NCBI GenBank assembly: GCA_002869925.2
Contig: NEWT02000035.1
Location: 158,918-222,917, forward strand
DNA length: 64,000 nucleotides
Reading direction: 5' to 3'
Source: Nitrospira sp. CG24A
Lineage (GTDB): Bacteria; Nitrospirota; Nitrospiria; Nitrospirales; Nitrospiraceae
Below, piece by piece: positions 4,199 through 18,693 of this stretch (positions are counted from its first letter, which is position 1; every line of letters starts with the position of its first letter). The notes beneath the pieces are model-generated. The model worked only from the letters and a program-made list of their open reading frames with translations. It ran no database searches and was not told the origin of the DNA. The position numbers and the translations under genes are program-made.

Positions 4199-6823
4199 TT
4201 CTTTTTTCTGATGAAAATGCTGCCGCACCAGTGTCTCGACTGAAGTGAAATGCCGGTCGGGGAGATTTTTGAAGCGCCGCTTACAATCGAGGAGGGCTTC
4301 GCCCGCTGTGGCGAAGGGTTCGATCACGGATATGAGATGATTGTGGTAGTCCATGAGCTTCAGTTCAACGGTTCTCAGATGGCTAGGATCGCCTGCGATG
4401 GCGAGTGTGGCATCGGCCTGATCGCCGGCTGCCTCGACCAGCGCTTGGAAGCAGAGGCCCTTCAATCGTTGTGTCACGGTACTACGGTCCCACCCTAATG
4501 TTTTTGCTGTCGCCTGCATGTCGAAGCTGTGTTCACGGAGACAATGCAATACCGCGGCATCGCTGGCCGGATCCGGCAGAATCTGTGATGCCTTGGTTCG
4601 ACCTGCCGGCTGAAGGGCGCTGTCGAGTCGTAATGATTCTATGCTGAGCAGGGGGCCGTCATTGAGTGCGACCGCCTGTTCCAGGCAATGCCGGAACTCC
4701 CGCACGTTTCCTTTCCATTCATGTTCGACCAGTGCGCGAAGCGCCTCGTTCGAGAGCTGTGGCATCGGCTTACTCATCTGAGCGGCGATGTCGTGGAGAA
4801 ACGTATCTGCGAGGATGGGTACGTCGCCTGTGTGTTCTCGCAACGGTGGGAGCCGGAACACCAGACCGGTCAGGCGAAAGTAGAGATCCTCACGGAACCA
4901 GCCTTCAGACACTCCGCGCTGCAGATCTCGATTCGTGGCGGCTACAATCCGCACATCCACCGTGGTGGAGGCCGTGGCGCCGACGCGATAGAAAGACTTC
5001 TCCTGTAAAATCCGCAGTAGCTTGCTCTGGTGATCCAATCGCAGATCGCCGATCTCGTCTAGAAAAATAGTTCCATGGTTGGCCAGTTCGAAGTAGCCGC
5101 GCCGGTCTGCCGTCGCCCCGGTGAAACTGCCTCTCGTGTGCCCGAAGAGTTCGCTTTCAAACAACTCTGGAGAAATTGCCGCCATGTTGACGGCGATGAA
5201 GGTTTTGCCGGCGCGTGGACTGAGCCGGTGAACCGCCCGGGCAAAGAGTTCTTTCCCGGTCCCCGGTTCGCCGAGCACAAGGACCGTCAGAGGCGACTTG
5301 GCCCCTTTCTTGAGATCCCGGTACAGGCGCAAGAGGCCGGGGTCTTGCGTGACGATGCAGAGCTGCCGACATTCATCTCGCAGGCGAGCGAGTTCTGTGT
5401 CGTCTATTGCCGTGGACTCGTTTGTGGCAGCACGCAGATTATGCAATTGCTGTTCGAGTCCTTTCAGCTTCTTGCGCGCGTCATCTTCCTGTGTTCGGGC
5501 ATCGGCGAGTTGGGAGCGAAGGACGTCTGCGGATCTGGAGAGTTCTTCCTGCTGACCCGTCGATTGTGTGATAGCGGCTCGTGCGACGTCGAGGTCTTCC
5601 TGCAACGTATCTGCTCGGGTTTCCCGCAGCACAAGTGCTTCGCGTACGGCGATGGCTTCCTGCTGCAGGTGGAGCATGTCCTGTTCGATGAGCATCAGCC
5701 GCTGATGAGCGGTGAGGTGGCTCCAAATGGTGGTGCCGACGAGCACCACCAGAGCCGCCGTCATGGGCATGGCGAGGGGAAGCACCAAGTGGCCCATTGT
5801 GAGCGCGAGGATCACGACGACTCCATAAGAGGCTATAGCTTTCCCGGCAAAAAGCAGGCTGATCGCCCCTCTGAAACGAATCAGGGTCCAGGCAACCAAC
5901 CAGGCTACGAGCAGCGTCAATAACGAACGGCTGGTAACACCGAGTTGGTAGAGGTGATTGCCGGTCAGCAGCATGTTGAGGACGTGGAGATGTGCAACCG
6001 AGCTCGTGATCGTCTGTCCTGTGGGCAAGAGCCAGCTTCCTCCCGTGACAGGATTTGGGAGAAATACGACGATCTTCCCTTTGAACCACTCGGTCAGCCG
6101 GTCGCGCTCGTGATGCTCGATGGCGTTCCAGACGGATGACAAAGGAACGGTTGGAAGGGAATTGATCGTTCCATTGCCGACGTAGTTGATTAAGAGGGAC
6201 GTTGTGCTTCTTTGTGAAAATGACAGCGTAGTCGGTGAAGTCTGTTGTTGAAATGCCTCGAACAGTGCCATGCCGAATGCTGGGATGGATTGCTTGTCGC
6301 CGGTTACCGTCACAGGTACTGTTCGCGTGATACGATCGGGATGGGGTGTGACCACAAGATGACCTGCGATCGTTTCGTTTGAGACCAGCGTTGCCTCAGG
6401 GCTCTGCACGACGACGATGGGGCCGGCGGCGCTCATGGCTTCCAGCAGGAGGGCATCGCTCGCCGCCCCGCCGAGCTGCGCTGGACTGGCATGGTTGAGG
6501 CGATGATCGATGCCGATCACGAGAGCGCCTGATTCATGTGCACTGGTCAGCAGGCGTGCGAGAACGGCGCGGTCCCATGGGCCTACACCGAGCGTTTCTT
6601 CGCTGGCCGGATCCCGCGTGACAATGAGAAGAGATTGGCTGACTGGGATAGGTGCGCGATCGGTCAGCCAGAAATCGTACGCGGTCCAGTCCAATGCCGT
6701 AAATGTCGATGAGGCTGCAGCCCATAGTCCGAGCGCCATGACGGTCGCAATCAGCCCCATGGCCCCGGCCTGGAGCCAGGAAGAGCTGAGAAATTGTCGC
6801 CACAGGCGTGAAGTATCGAGCAT
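4169..6823 (-). CDS. CHASE2-domain, sigma-54-interacting AAA+ transcriptional regulator
   Basis: The 884-residue protein starts with one membrane helix (about 15-37) and a large periplasmic CHASE2-type sensor (about 45-290). Three more helices (about 295-375) and a glutamine-rich coiled coil (about 380-490) follow. The sigma-54 AAA+ domain (about 515-745) shows Walker A GEPGTGKE, a GSFTGA loop in place of the usual GAFTGA, Walker B TIFLDEIGDL and the sensor VAATNRDL. A helix-turn-helix sits at about 775-810. It should sense an extracytoplasmic cue and activate sigma-54 promoters; targets are unknown. The last ten codons are antisense to the GNAT pseudogene. The TPR lipoprotein gene lies 9 bases upstream and may be cotranscribed. 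Confidence 0.88.
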   Translation of the reverse strand: MLDTSRLWRQFLSSSWLQAGAMGLIATVMALGLWAAASSTFTALDWTAYDFWLTDRAPIPVSQSLLIVTRDPASEETLGVGPWDRAVLARLLTSAHESGALVIGIDHRLNHASPAQLGGAASDALLLEAMSAAGPIVVVQSPEATLVSNETIAGHLVVTPHPDRITRTVPVTVTGDKQSIPAFGMALFEAFQQQTSPTTLSFSQRSTTSLLINYVGNGTINSLPTVPLSSVWNAIEHHERDRLTEWFKGKIVVFLPNPVTGGSWLLPTGQTITSSVAHLHVLNMLLTGNHLYQLGVTSRSLLTLLVAWLVAWTLIRFRGAISLLFAGKAIASYGVVVILALTMGHLVLPLAMPMTAALVVLVGTTIWSHLTAHQRLMLIEQDMLHLQQEAIAVREALVLRETRADTLQEDLDVARAAITQSTGQQEELSRSADVLRSQLADARTQEDDARKKLKGLEQQLHNLRAATNESTAIDDTELARLRDECRQLCIVTQDPGLLRLYRDLKKGAKSPLTVLVLGEPGTGKELFARAVHRLSPRAGKTFIAVNMAAISPELFESELFGHTRGSFTGATADRRGYFELANHGTIFLDEIGDLRLDHQSKLLRILQEKSFYRVGATASTTVDVRIVAATNRDLQRGVSEGWFREDLYFRLTGLVFRLPPLREHTGDVPILADTFLHDIAAQMSKPMPQLSNEALRALVEHEWKGNVREFRHCLEQAVALNDGPLLSIESLRLDSALQPAGRTKASQILPDPASDAAVLHCLREHSFDMQATAKTLGWDRSTVTQRLKGLCFQALVEAAGDQADATLAIAGDPSHLRTVELKLMDYHNHLISVIEPFATAGEALLDCKRRFKNLPDRHFTSVETLVRQHFHQKKESKFQSRIDT

Positions 6824-11935: not shown

Positions 11936-13693
11936 ATGAGTGATCGCCGACCCGCGCAGCCACAGGATCCAGCATCCAACGGGAAGACGGAGGATGCCCC
12001 GAATCAATCCATGCGCATGGAATCCGATCCGCTCGAGCTTATAGAGCAATGTCTCGCTTCTTTCCCCGACAGTGATCCCCGCCAGAAGATTCTCTACAAG
12101 CTGCGCCATGTCGTGACCCTTGGGCAAGCCGCGCAGAAGCAGCGAGAAGTTGAATTCAAGAAAGTCGCCGATGTCATCGCGAAGCTCACGGCGCCGGCTA
12201 ATCGAGTCGGCACGCTACTTGAGGTGCCGGGTGAAGGCCTTGCAAGGATCCTGGTGGGGGGTGCCGAATACTATGCCTCGGTTGATCCACGGGTGCAGGC
12301 TGCCGAGTTAAAGATCGGCGCCCAGATTCTCGTGAATGAGGCGTATGCGGTGATCAAGGTCTTGGGCTACGACCGTAATGGGCCTGTGTTGAAAGTGGCG
12401 GAAGCGTTGGCGGATGGGCGGCTTCGCTTCGAGCAGGAGATGGGGCGGCAGGTGTTGATTCTCCAACGATCGAGCGATCTCGTCGGCGTGGACCTGAAGG
12501 CAGGCGATGAAGTGCGAATCGACCCCAGCCTCCATGTGGCGATCGAGAAATTGGAAGACAGGAAAGCTAAGTCGCACTTGCTCGACGAGGTTCCCACGGT
12601 CACATGGGAGCAGATCGGTGGGCAAACAGAGGCGATTTCAGCCATTCAAAAAGCCATCCAGTATCCCTTGCTCCACGCGGACACATTTCAGCGCTTTAAG
12701 TTCACTCAGCCCAAGGGCTTCCTGCTCTATGGCCCTCCAGGTTGTGGAAAGACGTTGATCGGGCAAGCGGCAGCCGCCAGCCTTTCGAAGTTGGTGGGGG
12801 AGTCGAACCAGGCTGCCTCAGGCGCGAAGGGAGACAAGACTCCCGTGACTCGCGGGGCCTTCCTTCACATCAAAGGGCCAGAGATTCTGAATATGTGGCT
12901 GGGGGAATCGGAGCGGATGGTCAGGGATCTGTTCGCCCAGGCCCGCGCTCGTCGGAAAGAGGGGGCCTTGCCGTTTATTTTTATCGATGAGGCGGAATCG
13001 GTTCTCGGGACGAGACGGGCTTCTCGTTCATTTAATATCTCCAGCACCTTGGTGCCGATGTTCTGTTCCGAGATGGATGGGATCGAGTCGTTGCAGGATG
13101 TGGTGATTATTCTAGCTTCGAATCGGCCTGATCTGATCGACCCGGCTGTGCTGCGGCCAGGGCGTATCGATCGCAAGATTAAAGTGAGCCGTCCGAATCG
13201 TGATTCGGCGGCATCGATTCTGAGTGTGTATCTCACGGACGATCTGCCGCTGGACCGGCAATGGATCGACCAGCATGGAGGAGACCGGAAAAAAGCTTGT
13301 GCCGACCTTGTCGAACATGCGCTCTCCGCGATCTTCTCGCGTATCGATGAGAATCGGCTTCTGTCGATCAGGCTCAGAAGCGGACAGAATAAGGTCCTCT
13401 ATCGAGGTGATTTGATCAGCGGTGCGATCCTGGCTTCAATCGTCCAACGGGCGAAAGAGCAGGCGATTGATCGTGTGATTGCGGCAGGCGGAGCTGAACA
13501 AAGCGGCATGACCTTGGACGATCTCATGAGTTCCGTGCACGCAGAATTCAGAGAGGGTGAGATGTTGCCGCCCGACGATGCGGCGGAAGAATGGCTCAAA
13601 CTTCTCGACCACCACCCGGAACAGGTCGTCGGAGTCTCCTCGTTCCGAAGAGGGCGGCAGTCCGAAGAGAGACTGCTCAGCCAAATTATTTGA
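11936..13693 (+). CDS. Proteasomal AAA+ ATPase (ARC/Mpa family)
   Basis: The 585-residue protein has a short N-terminal helical segment. OB-type domains (about 80-205; VGVDLKAGDEVRIDPS marks the second) follow, then an AAA+ domain with Walker A GPPGCGKT, Walker B FIFIDEAESVLG and arginine-rich RPGRIDRKIK. It should unfold pupylated proteins and feed them to the PrcAB proteasome. It is the first gene of the six-gene tagging locus. Unlike mycobacterial Mpa, which ends in a penultimate Tyr motif, this one ends SQII, so its docking to the proteasome gate may differ. Confidence 0.92.
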   Translation: MSDRRPAQPQDPASNGKTEDAPNQSMRMESDPLELIEQCLASFPDSDPRQKILYKLRHVVTLGQAAQKQREVEFKKVADVIAKLTAPANRVGTLLEVPGEGLARILVGGAEYYASVDPRVQAAELKIGAQILVNEAYAVIKVLGYDRNGPVLKVAEALADGRLRFEQEMGRQVLILQRSSDLVGVDLKAGDEVRIDPSLHVAIEKLEDRKAKSHLLDEVPTVTWEQIGGQTEAISAIQKAIQYPLLHADTFQRFKFTQPKGFLLYGPPGCGKTLIGQAAAASLSKLVGESNQAASGAKGDKTPVTRGAFLHIKGPEILNMWLGESERMVRDLFAQARARRKEGALPFIFIDEAESVLGTRRASRSFNISSTLVPMFCSEMDGIESLQDVVIILASNRPDLIDPAVLRPGRIDRKIKVSRPNRDSAASILSVYLTDDLPLDRQWIDQHGGDRKKACADLVEHALSAIFSRIDENRLLSIRLRSGQNKVLYRGDLISGAILASIVQRAKEQAIDRVIAAGGAEQSGMTLDDLMSSVHAEFREGEMLPPDDAAEEWLKLLDHHPEQVVGVSSFRRGRQSEERLLSQII

Positions 13694-13696
13694 AGA

Positions 13697-13790
13697 CGTA
13701 AGGGGTGAGGGGGTAAGGCGTAAGGGGTAGCAGAACGTGAAAAGGCTCTGTTCAGTCAAGTCCGTTCACTTTACGCCTCACACCTAACGG
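13697..13790. repeat. Family-C short-period repeat, arms of about 10 bases
   Basis: Between the ATPase and dop genes there is a run of near-repeats built on GTAAGG/GTGAGG (for example GTAAGGCGTAAGG), then a mirrored arm CACTTTACGCCTCACACC. The two arms can pair into a hairpin. Related stretches occur at 15513, 20448, 36507 and 44421. No gene fits here. Confidence 0.6.
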
Positions 13791-13791
13791 C

Positions 13792-15321
13792 ATGATACGG
13801 CTATTCGGCATCGAAACAGAGTATGGGATTACGAGGGAAGACCAGGACGCGGTCGATCCGGTCGTGGAGTCGATGGAACTGGTGCGAGCCCATCTGACGG
13901 CCTCCTTCGAGCGGCGCTGGGACTATGGCGGTGAAGATCCGCACGAAGATGCGCGGGGGTTTCGGGTTTCCGGTCTGCAGCAAGATAAAGAAGAAGACGA
14001 GTTCGCCAAGGTCGATGCCCATCGGCCGTTTTCGTTTCATGAGATGAAGAGTGATTTGGTTCTCCCTAACGGCGCACGCTTCTACAACGATCATACGCAC
14101 CCTGAATATTCCACACCAGAATGCCGAACACTGAAAGACCTTCTTGCCTACGACCGTGCCGGGGAGCGTATTGCCCAGCGGGCGGCGGAACGCCGCAACC
14201 ATGTGCTCGGCGGGCCCCATGTGCAGCTTTATAAGAACAACACGGACTTTCACGGACACAGTTACGGCTGTCACGATAACTACCTCGTCTCTCGCTCGAT
14301 TCCCTTCCCGTCGCTGACCGCAGGGTTACTGCCGTTCCTTGTTAGCCGGCAGATCATTGCTGGAGCTGGGAAAGTCGGGATGGAAGGTCAAGAGAATGGG
14401 TTCGTGCCGGGCCAGTATCAGCTGTCTCAACGAGCTGATTTTGTGGAGACAGATTTAAGCGTCGATACGATGCACAACCGGCCTATTCTGAATACGAGGG
14501 ACGAGCCGCACGCGGTTCGTGAAAAATACCGACGGCTCCATCTCATCATCGGCGATGCCAATATGTGTGAATACACGACGGCGTTGAAAGTTGGGACGAC
14601 GCAGTTGGCGCTGGAATTAATCGCGCGCGAGGTTGCCCCCGCTCTTGAATTGGAACATCCCGTCACCGCGGTGAAGCAGCTGTCTCGCGATCAGAACCTG
14701 AAGGCGACGGTCCGTCAAAAGAACGGTAGCACCATCACGGGCCTCGACATTCAAGAGCAGTATTACATCGCGGCCGAGAAATATTTAGCCGGTGTTGACG
14801 CAGAGACCGATTGGATCCTTCGCGAATGGGCGGCCACGCTGCGGTTGCTCACCGGTGATCGAGGGCAACTGGTCGGGCGGCTCGATTGGGTCACCAAGCT
14901 CTGGTTGTTAGAAACCTTTATGCAGGAAGAGCGGATTGGATGGGATGATCCCTGGCTGGCGAGTTTGGATTTGGAGTACCATAATGTGAATCCTGAACGC
15001 GGACTCTTCCTCGGGCTCGAGGCCGAGGGGAAGGCCTGGCGGATGACGTCGGAGCAGGACGTCGAATTGGCATTGGTGGTTGGCCCGGCCGATACGAGAG
15101 CAGGGATTCGTGGCCTCTGTATCAGACGGTTCCCAGATCAGATCAAGTCGATGCAATGGGAACGCATTCAGTTCAGCGGGGGGCTGCTTCCGCGGACATT
15201 AGAGATGGGCGACCTCTTCGAACCTGAGGCGGTGCAAGTCTGCGCGCAGATATTCGAAAGCGCGGCATCCCCAGTGGATGCGCTGAACGCATGGAACAGA
15301 GAAAAGGAGTTTCGATCATGA
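13792..15321 (+). CDS. dop: Dop, deamidase/depupylase of Pup (UBact)
   Basis: The 509-residue protein starts MIRLFGIETEYGI, the signature of the carboxylate-amine-ligase-like PafA/Dop family. Dop is favoured over PafA by an inserted loop near residue 40-75 (RWDYGGEDPHEDARGF), also seen in mycobacterial Dop. Further family motifs are HPEYSTPEC, QLYKNNTD, NYLVSRSIPF and NTRDEPHA. It should convert the C-terminal Gln of the tag to Glu and also remove the tag from substrates. The pup/UBact start codon overlaps its stop as ATGA. Confidence 0.92.
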   Translation: MIRLFGIETEYGITREDQDAVDPVVESMELVRAHLTASFERRWDYGGEDPHEDARGFRVSGLQQDKEEDEFAKVDAHRPFSFHEMKSDLVLPNGARFYNDHTHPEYSTPECRTLKDLLAYDRAGERIAQRAAERRNHVLGGPHVQLYKNNTDFHGHSYGCHDNYLVSRSIPFPSLTAGLLPFLVSRQIIAGAGKVGMEGQENGFVPGQYQLSQRADFVETDLSVDTMHNRPILNTRDEPHAVREKYRRLHLIIGDANMCEYTTALKVGTTQLALELIAREVAPALELEHPVTAVKQLSRDQNLKATVRQKNGSTITGLDIQEQYYIAAEKYLAGVDAETDWILREWAATLRLLTGDRGQLVGRLDWVTKLWLLETFMQEERIGWDDPWLASLDLEYHNVNPERGLFLGLEAEGKAWRMTSEQDVELALVVGPADTRAGIRGLCIRRFPDQIKSMQWERIQFSGGLLPRTLEMGDLFEPEAVQVCAQIFESAASPVDALNAWNREKEFRS

Positions 15322-15512
15322 ACCACATTTCAATGCCGGAGCGAAGGGAAGGCCCAGGTACTCCTATGCCGAAGGCGCCGAGTCCGTCCGATGAGGGCGG
15401 TGGACCTCGCAAACCCGAGACCGGCTCGCCGGATAAAGACAATCTGCTCAAGCGTATGCGTAAGGTCGATCCAAAGCAGGCGGAGCGGTATCGGCAACGG
15501 ACAGGGCAGTAA
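15318..15512 (+). CDS. UBact/Pup-like protein modifier
   Basis: This 64-residue, highly charged and probably disordered protein lies directly after dop. The N-terminal half is rich in Pro, Gly and Ser; the C-terminal half (DNLLKRMRKVDPKQAERY) can form a helix. It ends RTGQ, a Gly-Gln end that Dop would deamidate to Gly-Glu before ligation. This matches the UBact type of Pup described in Nitrospirota and related phyla. Start 15318 has AAAGGAGT upstream (15303-15310); a start at 15291 would lie in dop. Direct overlap with dop implies coupled translation. Confidence 0.93.
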   Translation: MNHISMPERREGPGTPMPKAPSPSDEGGGPRKPETGSPDKDNLLKRMRKVDPKQAERYRQRTGQ

Positions 15513-15607
15513 GCGTGAAAGGTAAAAGGTGAAACGTGAGAGGTAAAGATGACGAATATTCATATGCTCGGGTTCGAACACCTTCACGTTTTACGTCTCA
15601 CGAGGTA
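15513..15607. repeat. Family-C repeats between pup and prcB
   Basis: The stretch contains runs such as GTGAAAGGTAAAAGGTGAAA followed by a mirrored arm CACGTTTTACGTCTCACG. It is built of the same roughly ten-base words as the copy at 13697, so the dop-pup pair is flanked by two of these repeats. A frame open through it would only extend prcB upstream; the ribosome site near 15602 favours the ATG at 15611. Confidence 0.6.
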
Positions 15608-15610
15608 AAA

Positions 15611-16384
15611 ATGGGGATGCAAGGCGATTTCTATCAATTACTCAAAGAGCAGGGCTACACGTTTGGCGTACCGACGACGGTGGAGACCGGCCATGTACTC
15701 ACGAATGCCACGACGATTCTGGCTTTTAAGTATCGAGACGGTGTGTTGGTGGCCGGTGATCGTCGGGCGACCGCCGGCAATATGGTGATGTATGATCGGA
15801 CGGACAAGGTGTTGGAGATCGATCGGCACAGTGTCATGGCGATTGCCGGCGTCCCGGCAACCGCGTATGAAATGGTGCGTGTCCTGGATCACTCTTTCAA
15901 ATATTATCGGAGGACGCAGCTGCAAGAGCTGAGTTTCGACGGCAAACTTCGCGCGGTTTCCAAACTCTTGAAGGAGAATGTGCCGGCGGCCTTGGCCGGG
16001 ACGGGCGCGGTGGTCCCGGTGTTTGCCGGCTACGATATGGAGCAGGGCTCGGCCAAGATCTATTTCTACGATATCCTCGGGGCGGAGTTTGAAGCTGTTG
16101 AGTATGCCGTATCCGGGTCCGGTTCCCCGACGATCCGAGGGATCTTGCACTATCTGAATACATGGGGCGAGCAGCCCCTGAGTGCGCTGCCTGAAGAACA
16201 GGCTATGGTGCAGGCCTTACGACTGCTTACGAGTGCGGCGGAGTTCGATTCGGCGACCGGCGGTGTGAACCGAGAGGCAAGTTTGTATCCTGTGATCAAG
16301 TTGATTACCGGGGCCGGTGTGCAGACGGTTCCGGACGCGACGATGAAACCCCTCTATGAATCTCAGGTGGTGCGCTATGTATGA
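15611..16384 (+). CDS. prcB: Proteasome beta subunit (catalytic)
   Basis: The 257-residue precursor has a propeptide of about 33 residues and then the mature start TTILAFKYRDG. Catalytic residues fall at the expected places counting from the first Thr: Thr1, Asp17 (VAGD) and Lys33 (DRTDK). It is the N-terminal-nucleophile protease subunit of the 20S core. The residue before the catalytic Thr is Ala, where most bacterial beta subunits have Gly. ATG 15611 is chosen because GAGGT lies nearby; a longer frame from 15536 would start in repeat sequence. It overlaps prcA by 8 bases. Confidence 0.93.
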   Translation: MGMQGDFYQLLKEQGYTFGVPTTVETGHVLTNATTILAFKYRDGVLVAGDRRATAGNMVMYDRTDKVLEIDRHSVMAIAGVPATAYEMVRVLDHSFKYYRRTQLQELSFDGKLRAVSKLLKENVPAALAGTGAVVPVFAGYDMEQGSAKIYFYDILGAEFEAVEYAVSGSGSPTIRGILHYLNTWGEQPLSALPEEQAMVQALRLLTSAAEFDSATGGVNREASLYPVIKLITGAGVQTVPDATMKPLYESQVVRYV

Positions 16385-17207
16385 AGAGCCGTATCGCTGG
16401 GTCGAAGCTGTCGGCAATCGGCGTCAATATCTCGACGAACAGTTCAAGCAGGGGAGTCCGGTTGTCGCTCTGTCCTATGATGGAGGGATTCTCCTGACGA
16501 CAGTGAGCAAGGGTACCCCGAAGCTCTACGAGATCTACGACCGGCTGGCATTGGGGGGAATGGGGCATCCCACTGATCTGGAAAAACTTCGCTTTAGTCT
16601 ACTCGAAATGGCTCATGTCGAAGGTTTCAATCGTTCTCCATCTGATGTCACGGGGTCGAGACTAGTAAAATACGGGATTGCCCCGGTGATAAAGCAGGCC
16701 TTCGAGGAAGTCTATAAGGCGCCGTTTATCGTCCGTATCGTGGTGGCCGAGTTGGGGCAGAAGCCGGAGAAGGATGCGTTGTTGACGATCAACTACGATG
16801 GGACGTTTGAGGAAACGACGGGTCGCGCGGTGTTGGCTGCTACCTCGGCTGCTCAGACGAAGATGATGTCGTATCTCAAGGAGCAGCAGCCGGCTCCGCT
16901 TTCATTGGAACAGGCGTTGGATCTGGCTTTGCGCGCCTGGGCGATTGGTTCGTTGGCGCATCAACAAGATGAGGCAGACCAACAGGCTGAGGCCAAGCCA
17001 CAGACTAGTAACGCAGGCTCATCGGCCGCCGCCATTCCCAGCAGTGATACCTTGATCGCACATGTCCGGAGCATTGCCGGTGAACGGACGATCGAATGCG
17101 CAATTCTCGAGCGCCAGGCTCCCGGCAGCTCAAAATATCGGTCGCTCAAACAGGTGGACCTGTCACGCCTCCTGCCGGCCGCGCTTCAGTCCGTCGTGGC
17201 GAACTAA
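16377..17207 (+). CDS. prcA: Proteasome alpha subunit
   Basis: The 276-residue protein begins MYEEPYRWVEA, a gate-forming N-terminal segment. The alpha-type core continues through SPVVALSYDGGILL and an IYDRLALGGMG segment, and it lacks the catalytic Thr. The last 70 or so residues form a low-complexity linker (QQAEAKPQT) and a C-terminal strand-rich extension (GERTIECAILERQAPG). It should form the outer rings of the 20S core and bind the ATPase. The start is the ATG at 16377, inside the end of prcB, so the two are translationally coupled. Confidence 0.9.
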   Translation: MYEEPYRWVEAVGNRRQYLDEQFKQGSPVVALSYDGGILLTTVSKGTPKLYEIYDRLALGGMGHPTDLEKLRFSLLEMAHVEGFNRSPSDVTGSRLVKYGIAPVIKQAFEEVYKAPFIVRIVVAELGQKPEKDALLTINYDGTFEETTGRAVLAATSAAQTKMMSYLKEQQPAPLSLEQALDLALRAWAIGSLAHQQDEADQQAEAKPQTSNAGSSAAAIPSSDTLIAHVRSIAGERTIECAILERQAPGSSKYRSLKQVDLSRLLPAALQSVVAN

Positions 17208-17208
17208 G

Positions 17209-18693
17209 ATGTTGAACCGTATTTTCGGACTTGAAACCGAATACGGACTCTTGGTCAATCAAGAACGGCCCGATCATTCCCCGACTTGGTTTGCCCACCA
17301 GATCCGAGACCATCTCTTTCACGTTCAGCGGCGAGGCATCCTTGATCTGCACCACCGGGGTCACGATGAACCCCCTGGCAACGGAGGATTTCTCACCAAC
17401 GCCGGGCGCATGTATCTGGACATGGGCCATCTCGAATGGGCTTCGCCGGAGTGTGAATCGCTCAGCGATGTGGTGGCAGCCGACCGGGCCGGCGATCAGT
17501 TGCTGCAGGAAGCGGTTCAGGATCTCGGTCTGGCCGATACGGTGTCGTTGATCAAGAACAATGTGGATCATGAAACTGATGCGACCTTTGGGTCCCACGA
17601 GAATTATCTCGTCTCGCGGCGCTTTCCCTTTACGCGTCGAGGCCTCGGACCCTTAGTGACCTTCCTCGTCACCAGGCAGATCTTTACAGGGGCGGGACGT
17701 ATCGGTACCGCCGGCCCTCAGGATGGCTGGGTCCAGATGGATCGGCTCCTTGTGCCGCGAGCCATGAGTCATCGGTACGGACAGGAGGCGCTTCTCCCGT
17801 TTCAGATTTCGCAACGCGCCGATTACATTGTGAATGATTTCTTCGAATGGGTGCAGCAGAATCGCGCGATCGTCAATACCAGAGATGAACCCTTAGCTGA
17901 CCCAAATCAATATCGGCGTATTCATTTGTTATTGGGTGATTCAAATATGGCTGAGGTCGCCACAGGCTTGAAGCTGGGGACGACGGGGCTGGTTCTTCAA
18001 CTCATCGAAGAGGGCTACGCGCCGCTCGATCTCGACCTCAATGAGCCGGTCGAAACGATGCAGGACTTATCGCAAGATCAGAGTCGGCAATGGATCGTTC
18101 AGTTGGAGTCGGGGAAGACGATCTCCGCGATCGATATTCAGGAAGCGTTTCTCGCGGCGGCGACAGAGCACTATCGTGGACAGGACGATGAAACCGATTG
18201 GGTGCTCGATCAATGGGAAGCGGTCTTGCGCGATCTCCGAGGGGACTACCAAACGCTGGTGGGACGGGTCGATTGGGCCTCGAAGTTATGGCTGCTCGAA
18301 ACCTTTCGTGAAGCGGAGCAGATGACGTGGGCGGATCCGTCGTTGAAGAGTCTTGATTTGGAGTATCACAATCTCCATCAGAGCAAGGGACTCTATTATG
18401 GCCTGATGGAAGAAGGGCGGGTTCCACGCCTCATTACGGACAAGGCGATTACGTTGGCGATGGACCATCCTCCACGCAACACCAGGGCGTTTGGGCGAGG
18501 CGAACTTGTTCGCCATTTGTTAGCCTGTGGACCTCATGAGGCATCTGACGATCCCAAGCCGGAAGAGCGGTTTTCTCCTTCGTATGTAATTAATTGGTCG
18601 ATTTTCCAACTGCGTGGCCACGCGCCCTTTCCCATGCCGGATCCGTTCAAGACCTACGTGCAGGAAGTACGGACCCATTTACGAGCGGTCTGA
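17209..18693 (+). CDS. pafA: PafA, Pup (UBact) ligase
   Basis: The 494-residue protein begins MLNRIFGLETEYGLL and has the family motifs YLDMGHLEWASPEC, LIKNNVD, NYLVSRRFPF and NTRDEPLAD. It lacks the Dop-type loop insertion, and its C-terminal domain ends with DPFKTYV, close to the C-terminal region of PafA. It should use ATP to phosphorylate the C-terminal Glu of the tag and join it to substrate lysines. It follows prcA by one base and closes the locus. Confidence 0.9.
   Translation: MLNRIFGLETEYGLLVNQERPDHSPTWFAHQIRDHLFHVQRRGILDLHHRGHDEPPGNGGFLTNAGRMYLDMGHLEWASPECESLSDVVAADRAGDQLLQEAVQDLGLADTVSLIKNNVDHETDATFGSHENYLVSRRFPFTRRGLGPLVTFLVTRQIFTGAGRIGTAGPQDGWVQMDRLLVPRAMSHRYGQEALLPFQISQRADYIVNDFFEWVQQNRAIVNTRDEPLADPNQYRRIHLLLGDSNMAEVATGLKLGTTGLVLQLIEEGYAPLDLDLNEPVETMQDLSQDQSRQWIVQLESGKTISAIDIQEAFLAAATEHYRGQDDETDWVLDQWEAVLRDLRGDYQTLVGRVDWASKLWLLETFREAEQMTWADPSLKSLDLEYHNLHQSKGLYYGLMEEGRVPRLITDKAITLAMDHPPRNTRAFGRGELVRHLLACGPHEASDDPKPEERFSPSYVINWSIFQLRGHAPFPMPDPFKTYVQEVRTHLRAV

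Follow-up and report, generated by a model that had tools for sequence, protein, structure and literature searches.

A Nitrospira UBact conjugation-proteasome operon and a second, predicted canonical Pup-proteasome system in the same genome

Lehmann et al. reportedly described, in 2017, a UBact conjugation-proteasome system in Nitrospirae and other Gram-negative phyla. The locus analysed here has the same modifier family (PF20513, NF033388), the same phylum and the same C-terminal R-T-G-[EQ] of the tag, and its gene set shows no difference from that of the UBact system. Since UBact has its own Pfam and NCBIfam families and Gram-negative proteasome subunits have been recognized as a separate cluster (PMC5666114), the locus itself is already known. 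What is apparently new is the presence of a canonical Pup system alongside it and the lack of the HbYX tyrosine in the tail of the UBact-system ATPase; the co-occurrence of Pup and UBact may be contained in the 2017 report. In the open papers searched, no description of both systems in Nitrospira was found. According to a 2026 review, Nitrospirales have only one alpha and one beta proteasome subunit, and Rhodococcus (R.) erythropolis, with two alpha and two beta genes, is the only bacterium to depart from this number (PMC13022661).

The UBact operon and its products

The window, a stretch of 64,000 nucleotides from a Nitrospira sp. genome (positions 158918-222917 of the 688-kb contig C29), contains a UBact conjugation-proteasome operon at 11936-18693. 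An earlier note, made from the sequence alone, had proposed a complete Nitrospirota tagging locus of Pup/UBact type with six genes head to tail; the order ATPase-dop-UBact-prcB-prcA-pafA, the coordinates, the strand and the Pfam/NCBIfam identity of each gene were confirmed, and family matches together with named Nitrospira relatives bear out a complete UBact rather than Pup system. The features are as follows:

11936-13693, plus strand: UBact-system proteasomal AAA+ ATPase, ARC/Mpa homologue, 585 aa (PF00004, PF17758, PF16450)
13685-13690, plus strand: C-terminal Ile-Ile codons of the ATPase, with Ile at the Tyr position of HbYX/GQYL (tail comparison)
13694-13791, plus strand: 98-nt spacer between ATPase and dop with a long hairpin of -33.4 kcal/mol (fold; TTTACGYCTCAC matches)
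13792-15321, plus strand: dop, UBact deamidase/depupylase homologue, 509 aa (PF03136, 2.4e-164)
15318-15512, plus strand: UBact modifier gene, 64 aa, C-terminus RYRQRTGQ (PF20513, 1.2e-21; NF033388, 6.2e-23)
15513-15610, plus strand: 98-nt spacer between UBact and prcB with a hairpin of -26.5 kcal/mol and the same repeat type (fold; repeat matches)
15611-16384, plus strand: prcB, 20S proteasome beta subunit, 257 aa, from ATG (PF00227, 8.3e-26)
16377-17207, plus strand: prcA, 20S proteasome alpha subunit, 276 aa (PF00227, 5.7e-08; TIGR03691, 82.4 bits)
17209-18693, plus strand: pafA, UBact ligase, 494 aa (PF03136, 9.5e-130)

Two gene calls needed small corrections: prcA starts at ATG 16377, and pafA at 17209, the ATG further upstream at 17062 not being used. 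The overlapping starts noticed earlier are present, with 4 nt between dop and UBact, where the UBact start overlaps the dop stop codon, 8 nt between prcB and prcA, and a gap of 1 nt between prcA and pafA. Because of these overlaps, the 1-nt gap and the two 98-nt spacers, a single transcript of all six genes is plausible. Scans of the locus found no sigma-70 consensus promoter and gave a terminator signal at chance level. The spacer repeat TTTACGYCTCAC occurs in nine copies in the genome and in none in a backward control, and its hairpins may be a palindromic mobile element or a site of transcript processing.

The closest named loci come from Nitrospira sp. metagenome genomes (Dop identity 90-96%), and the operon is also present in the complete chromosome of Ca. 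Nitrospira defluvii (FP929003) and in dozens of Nitrospira genomes. Of 80 named Nitrospira loci, 73 have the order ATPase-Dop-UBact-PrcB-PrcA-PafA, which is also found in nearly all loci sampled across the phylum and in the majority of 119 other loci. In comparison with five relatives, dN/dS of each of the six genes is 0.02-0.20, mostly 0.04-0.09, which indicates strong purifying selection; all six genes are intact, and chance open reading frames and pseudogenes were excluded by these low values and by the gene order kept in relatives. The conserved catalytic residues and the purifying selection make it likely that the six genes are functional. The five proteins other than the modifier score below their canonical NCBIfam equivalog cut-offs, with 434.7 bits for the ATPase (TIGR03689, cut-off 504.75 for the canonical ATPase), 457.2 for Dop (492.3), 325.6 for PafA (551.3), 82.4 for PrcA (139.05) and 166.8 for PrcB (191.9).

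The modifier matches UBact models only (NF033388 80.8 bits, cut-off 35; PF20513 76.6 bits, cut-off 27.8), and the Pup models PF05639 and TIGR03687 are unmatched; the 64-residue protein ending in RTGQ that the note had singled out is thus present and passes the UBact family cut-offs. Among 80 named relatives, 56 tags end in RTGE and 22 in RTGQ, the window species having Gln. This mix implies that the need for deamidation differs between close species, with Dop retained throughout. For trypsin-digested conjugates, a Gly-Glu remnant on lysine had been expected; the prediction for UBact is instead Thr-Gly-Glu (+287.11 Da) versus Gly-Gly-Glu (+243.09 Da) for Pup. A candidate second UBact copy in another genome (G168) was rejected, as it reaches 24 bits, under the cut-off, in a frame without a GE or GQ end. 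Two relatives have altered loci. In L072 (genome G216), an open reading frame of 255 aa, methyltransferase-like by eye, lies on the reverse strand between dop and UBact (5134-5901). In L059 (Nitrospira sp. RSF8, genome G006), a deletion fuses the UBact C-terminus into the interior of prcB, with loss of the GE/GQ end and of Thr1; the named record has the same end, and either an assembly error or a real loss is involved.

PrcB has a propeptide of 33 aa. Alignment to bacterial beta subunits in the PDB upholds the catalytic Thr1, Asp17 and Lys33 named in the note, which correspond to Thr34, Asp50 and Lys66 of the precursor. In PrcA, the lysine of the activator pocket is Lys49, and it is found in 39 of 39 UBact-system PrcA proteins. 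The prcB-prcA stretch (15611-17207) differs from its counterparts in L060 and L051 by a dS of 0.09-0.22, far below the 0.35-0.59 of the flanking ATPase and dop, which suggests a recent exchange of prcBA between species.

Both ETEYG-type signatures proposed earlier were recovered, as GIETEYG in Dop and GLETEYG in PafA, and nearly all mapped ATP-site residues are kept in both proteins along with the GxETEYG motif. When mapped to Acidothermus (A.) cellulolyticus Dop numbering (PMC8599861), Trp43 of the window Dop corresponds to the Dop-loop residue W47 and Asp100 to the active-site residue D94. PafA retains the active-site Asp71 and the conserved catalytic columns, and the Dop-loop columns are missing, which is the main reason for calling it the ligase. 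Dop scores 457 bits with TIGR03688 versus 367 bits with TIGR03686. PafA, however, fits the two families almost equally well (325.6 bits for PafA, 321.0 bits for Dop), and the solved structures closest to it are Dop structures. It was therefore considered whether the two enzymes have swapped or share their roles. This reading would draw on the similarity of PafA to both families and on the best tree, in which the Dop and PafA of UBact systems, each a clade like their two Pup-system counterparts, group together, apart from the Pup-system and actinobacterial enzymes. The Dop-loop Trp, however, is found in 100% of UBact-system Dop proteins and in no UBact-system PafA, and a tree with a single old Dop/PafA split is unrejected (AU p = 0.219), so that exchanged or shared roles are very improbable. 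With Dop as deamidase and PafA as ligase, the best tree raises the point that these two activities may have split independently in the UBact and Pup systems.

The window ATPase combines a short N-terminal coiled coil and proteasomal ATPase OB domains with Walker A GPPGCGKT (residue 266), pore loop NMWLGE (319) and Walker B FIFIDEAE (347), and these motifs are kept in 39 of 39 relatives. It ends in LLSQII and lacks the tyrosine of HbYX (GQYL-like) tails. At the penultimate position, 38 of 39 UBact-system ATPases carry Ile or Val and none carries Tyr, and QII, HII or PII tails are found in 80 of 80 named loci, some species being common to both sets. The tail [IV]-[IE] is conserved within an otherwise variable C-terminus. 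The UBact operon L080 of one draft genome (G159) carries a deletion that fuses the start of prcB and the end of prcA in frame (156 aa); the conserved ATPase tail is also gone, and the tag, Dop and PafA remain. The joint loss of the tail and of intact prcBA is consistent with a docking role of the tail; the locus possibly represents a natural loss of the 20S core or an assembly error.

A canonical Pup system in the same genome

The whole genome contains four proteasome genes and four Pup_ligase genes, two of each inside the window. The remaining genes belong to a second set, which is dispersed over three places:

C29, 64.9-69.8 kb (L094, 8937-13763): ATPase2-dop2-prcB2-prcA2
C29, 140381-140569 (L124, 8379-8576): pup, unlinked, the one Pup match of the genome, outside the window
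C30 (L125, 6367-7761): pafA2

The contig that harbours the UBact operon thus also carries the second system except for pafA2. The six components score 731.8, 557.2, 299.3, 303.5, 561.1 and 62.8 bits, all over the curated cut-offs, Pup ends in QKGGE, and ATPase2 ends in TTGHYL, an HbYX motif. Judged by these matches, the second set is a complete canonical Pup-proteasome system. In three genomes the pup gene is flanked by hppA and recJ, and in a fourth it adjoins recJ and relA; because its neighbours recur across four genomes, it is regarded as a genuine gene with a stable position. In the deeper families of the phylum, the genes of the Pup system form a compact single operon with the gene order of the UBact operon. 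That the second system stems from contamination is unlikely, as a single 688-kb contig holds both, as do closed chromosomes; the complete Ca. Nitrospira defluvii chromosome, for instance, carries both tags.

Within the genus, 28 of 32 genomes encode UBact; across the phylum, 104 of the 296 sampled species do. Both tags occur together in 97 of these 296 Nitrospirota species; 7 carry UBact without Pup, 41 carry Pup without UBact and 151 carry neither tag, in raw counts that include draft genomes and ignore kinship. Most genomes of the family encode two bacterial-type beta subunits, one at about 300 bits and one at about 170 bits. Within the class Nitrospiria, at least four ligase-family genes are present in 82 of 87 UBact-positive and in 0 of 27 UBact-negative genomes, a pattern which indicates that the modules are kept or lost whole. 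The closed genome G050, probably that of Leptospirillum (L.) ferrooxidans, has UBact and two ligase genes; this genome and those of its genus-mates are without Pup and without the second system.

Two tags and the proposed separation of their pathways

Within the last 30 residues, the net charge of UBact is +2 to +5 and that of Pup is -9 to -3, and the ranges are disjoint. The enzymes differ as well: per 100 residues, UBact-system Dop and PafA carry average charges of -4.1 and -4.6, and Pup-system Dop and PafA carry -2.0 and -1.8, so that the former are about twice as acidic. The ATPase and PrcB are without this contrast and PrcA shows it in part; as UBact-system PrcA is somewhat more acidic too, the acidity is not limited to tag-binding proteins. 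Dop and PafA also contain columns with reversed charge, which could not be assigned to the tag groove.

Based on homology and conserved residues, the following mechanism is proposed for the operon. UBact would be made with a Gln end, which Dop would deamidate to Glu; later, Dop would also remove tags. PafA would join the Glu side chain of UBact to substrate lysines, and the hexameric ATPase would capture and unfold tagged proteins, thereby feeding them to the PrcA/PrcB 20S core. The oppositely charged tags with their matching enzymes would separate the two pathways, and each ATPase tail would dock on its own 20S core, with the Ile/Val-ending tail replacing HbYX in the UBact system. The UBact operon is most likely one of two tag-proteasome pathways in the cell that are kept apart, a reading to which a probability of about three in four is assigned. 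The fuller version, slightly short of even odds, is that most Nitrospiria have two insulated pathways, one with a basic UBact leaving Thr-Gly-Glu and one with an acidic Pup leaving Gly-Gly-Glu, and that the UBact core is opened by the tyrosine-free tail; in the same tentative reading, each tag would have its own ligase, deamidase, unfoldase and 20S core.

Alternatively, the two tags and proteasomes could cross-talk, with either ATPase or 20S core handling both, which would mean redundancy without insulation. Dop and PafA of both systems share nearly all mapped active-site residues, and the activator-binding pocket lysine is present in every PrcA of both systems, as such cross-talk would suppose. 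However, the tags are of opposite charge, ATPase tails and pore loops differ (16 of 16 Pup-system ATPases end in GHYL or GHYF), counterparts of the two systems in the window genome are only 31-42% identical, and the modules are lost whole, making cross-talk unlikely.

The missing tyrosine also bears on whether the UBact operon leads to degradation at all. In mycobacteria, GQYL/HbYX is needed for opening of the 20S gate (PMC12288473), and no examined UBact-system ATPase has the HbYX tyrosine; the gate might hence stay shut and the operon might mainly tag proteins for regulation, unless the core is activated by something else. A search for the alternative activator Bpa gave no match in the genome, and the control gave no match either. 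Against tagging without degradation stand the conservation of [IV]-[IE] amid a variable C-terminus, the pocket lysine in all 39 PrcA proteins, the retained PrcB active site, the persistence of ATPase and core genes in one operon, and genome G159, in which the tail has been lost with the fused and deleted prcB-prcA, which fits a docking role. Taken together, this second alternative is decidedly improbable, and a degradative UBact pathway beside that of Pup is preferred. From its gene content, one small bacterium thus appears to operate two parallel ubiquitin-like routes of protein disposal.

Comparison with known systems

The actinobacterial Pup-proteasome system as found in Mycobacterium (M.) tuberculosis (Mpa/ARC, Dop, Pup, PrcB, PrcA, PafA) has its gene order, enzyme families, proteasome architecture and catalytic residues in common with the window locus. 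In contrast to that system, with its acidic tag, the window locus encodes a basic UBact tag, its ATPase has a short N-terminal coiled coil and no GQYL tyrosine, and its proteins fall below the NCBIfam equivalog cut-offs. UBact-system ATPases constitute a family of proteasome unfoldases without the tyrosine that is regarded as essential for opening the gate. The coexistence of two tag-and-degrade systems within a single organism would furthermore provide a natural experiment in pathway separation, which single-system Actinobacteria do not offer. The second system also renders knockout or proteomic studies of the UBact operon alone ambiguous, and studies of UBact in Nitrospira, which are important nitrifiers, must control for Pup.

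The proteasome/pupylation locus of Leptospirillum (De Mot 2007; PMC2588565; PMC3511204) is of the same UBact type. In the Leptospirillum-type genome G050 and in those of its genus-mates, however, neither Pup nor the second system is present, which is perhaps the reason why two systems escaped notice in early work. The two alpha/beta pairs found here contradict the statement of the 2026 review that Nitrospirales have one of each subunit (PMC13022661). As in Nitrospira, two alpha and two beta genes are present in one bacterium in R. erythropolis, which was compared by subunit count alone; the feature of Nitrospira is that each alpha/beta pair is accompanied by its own ATPase, tag, ligase and deamidase.
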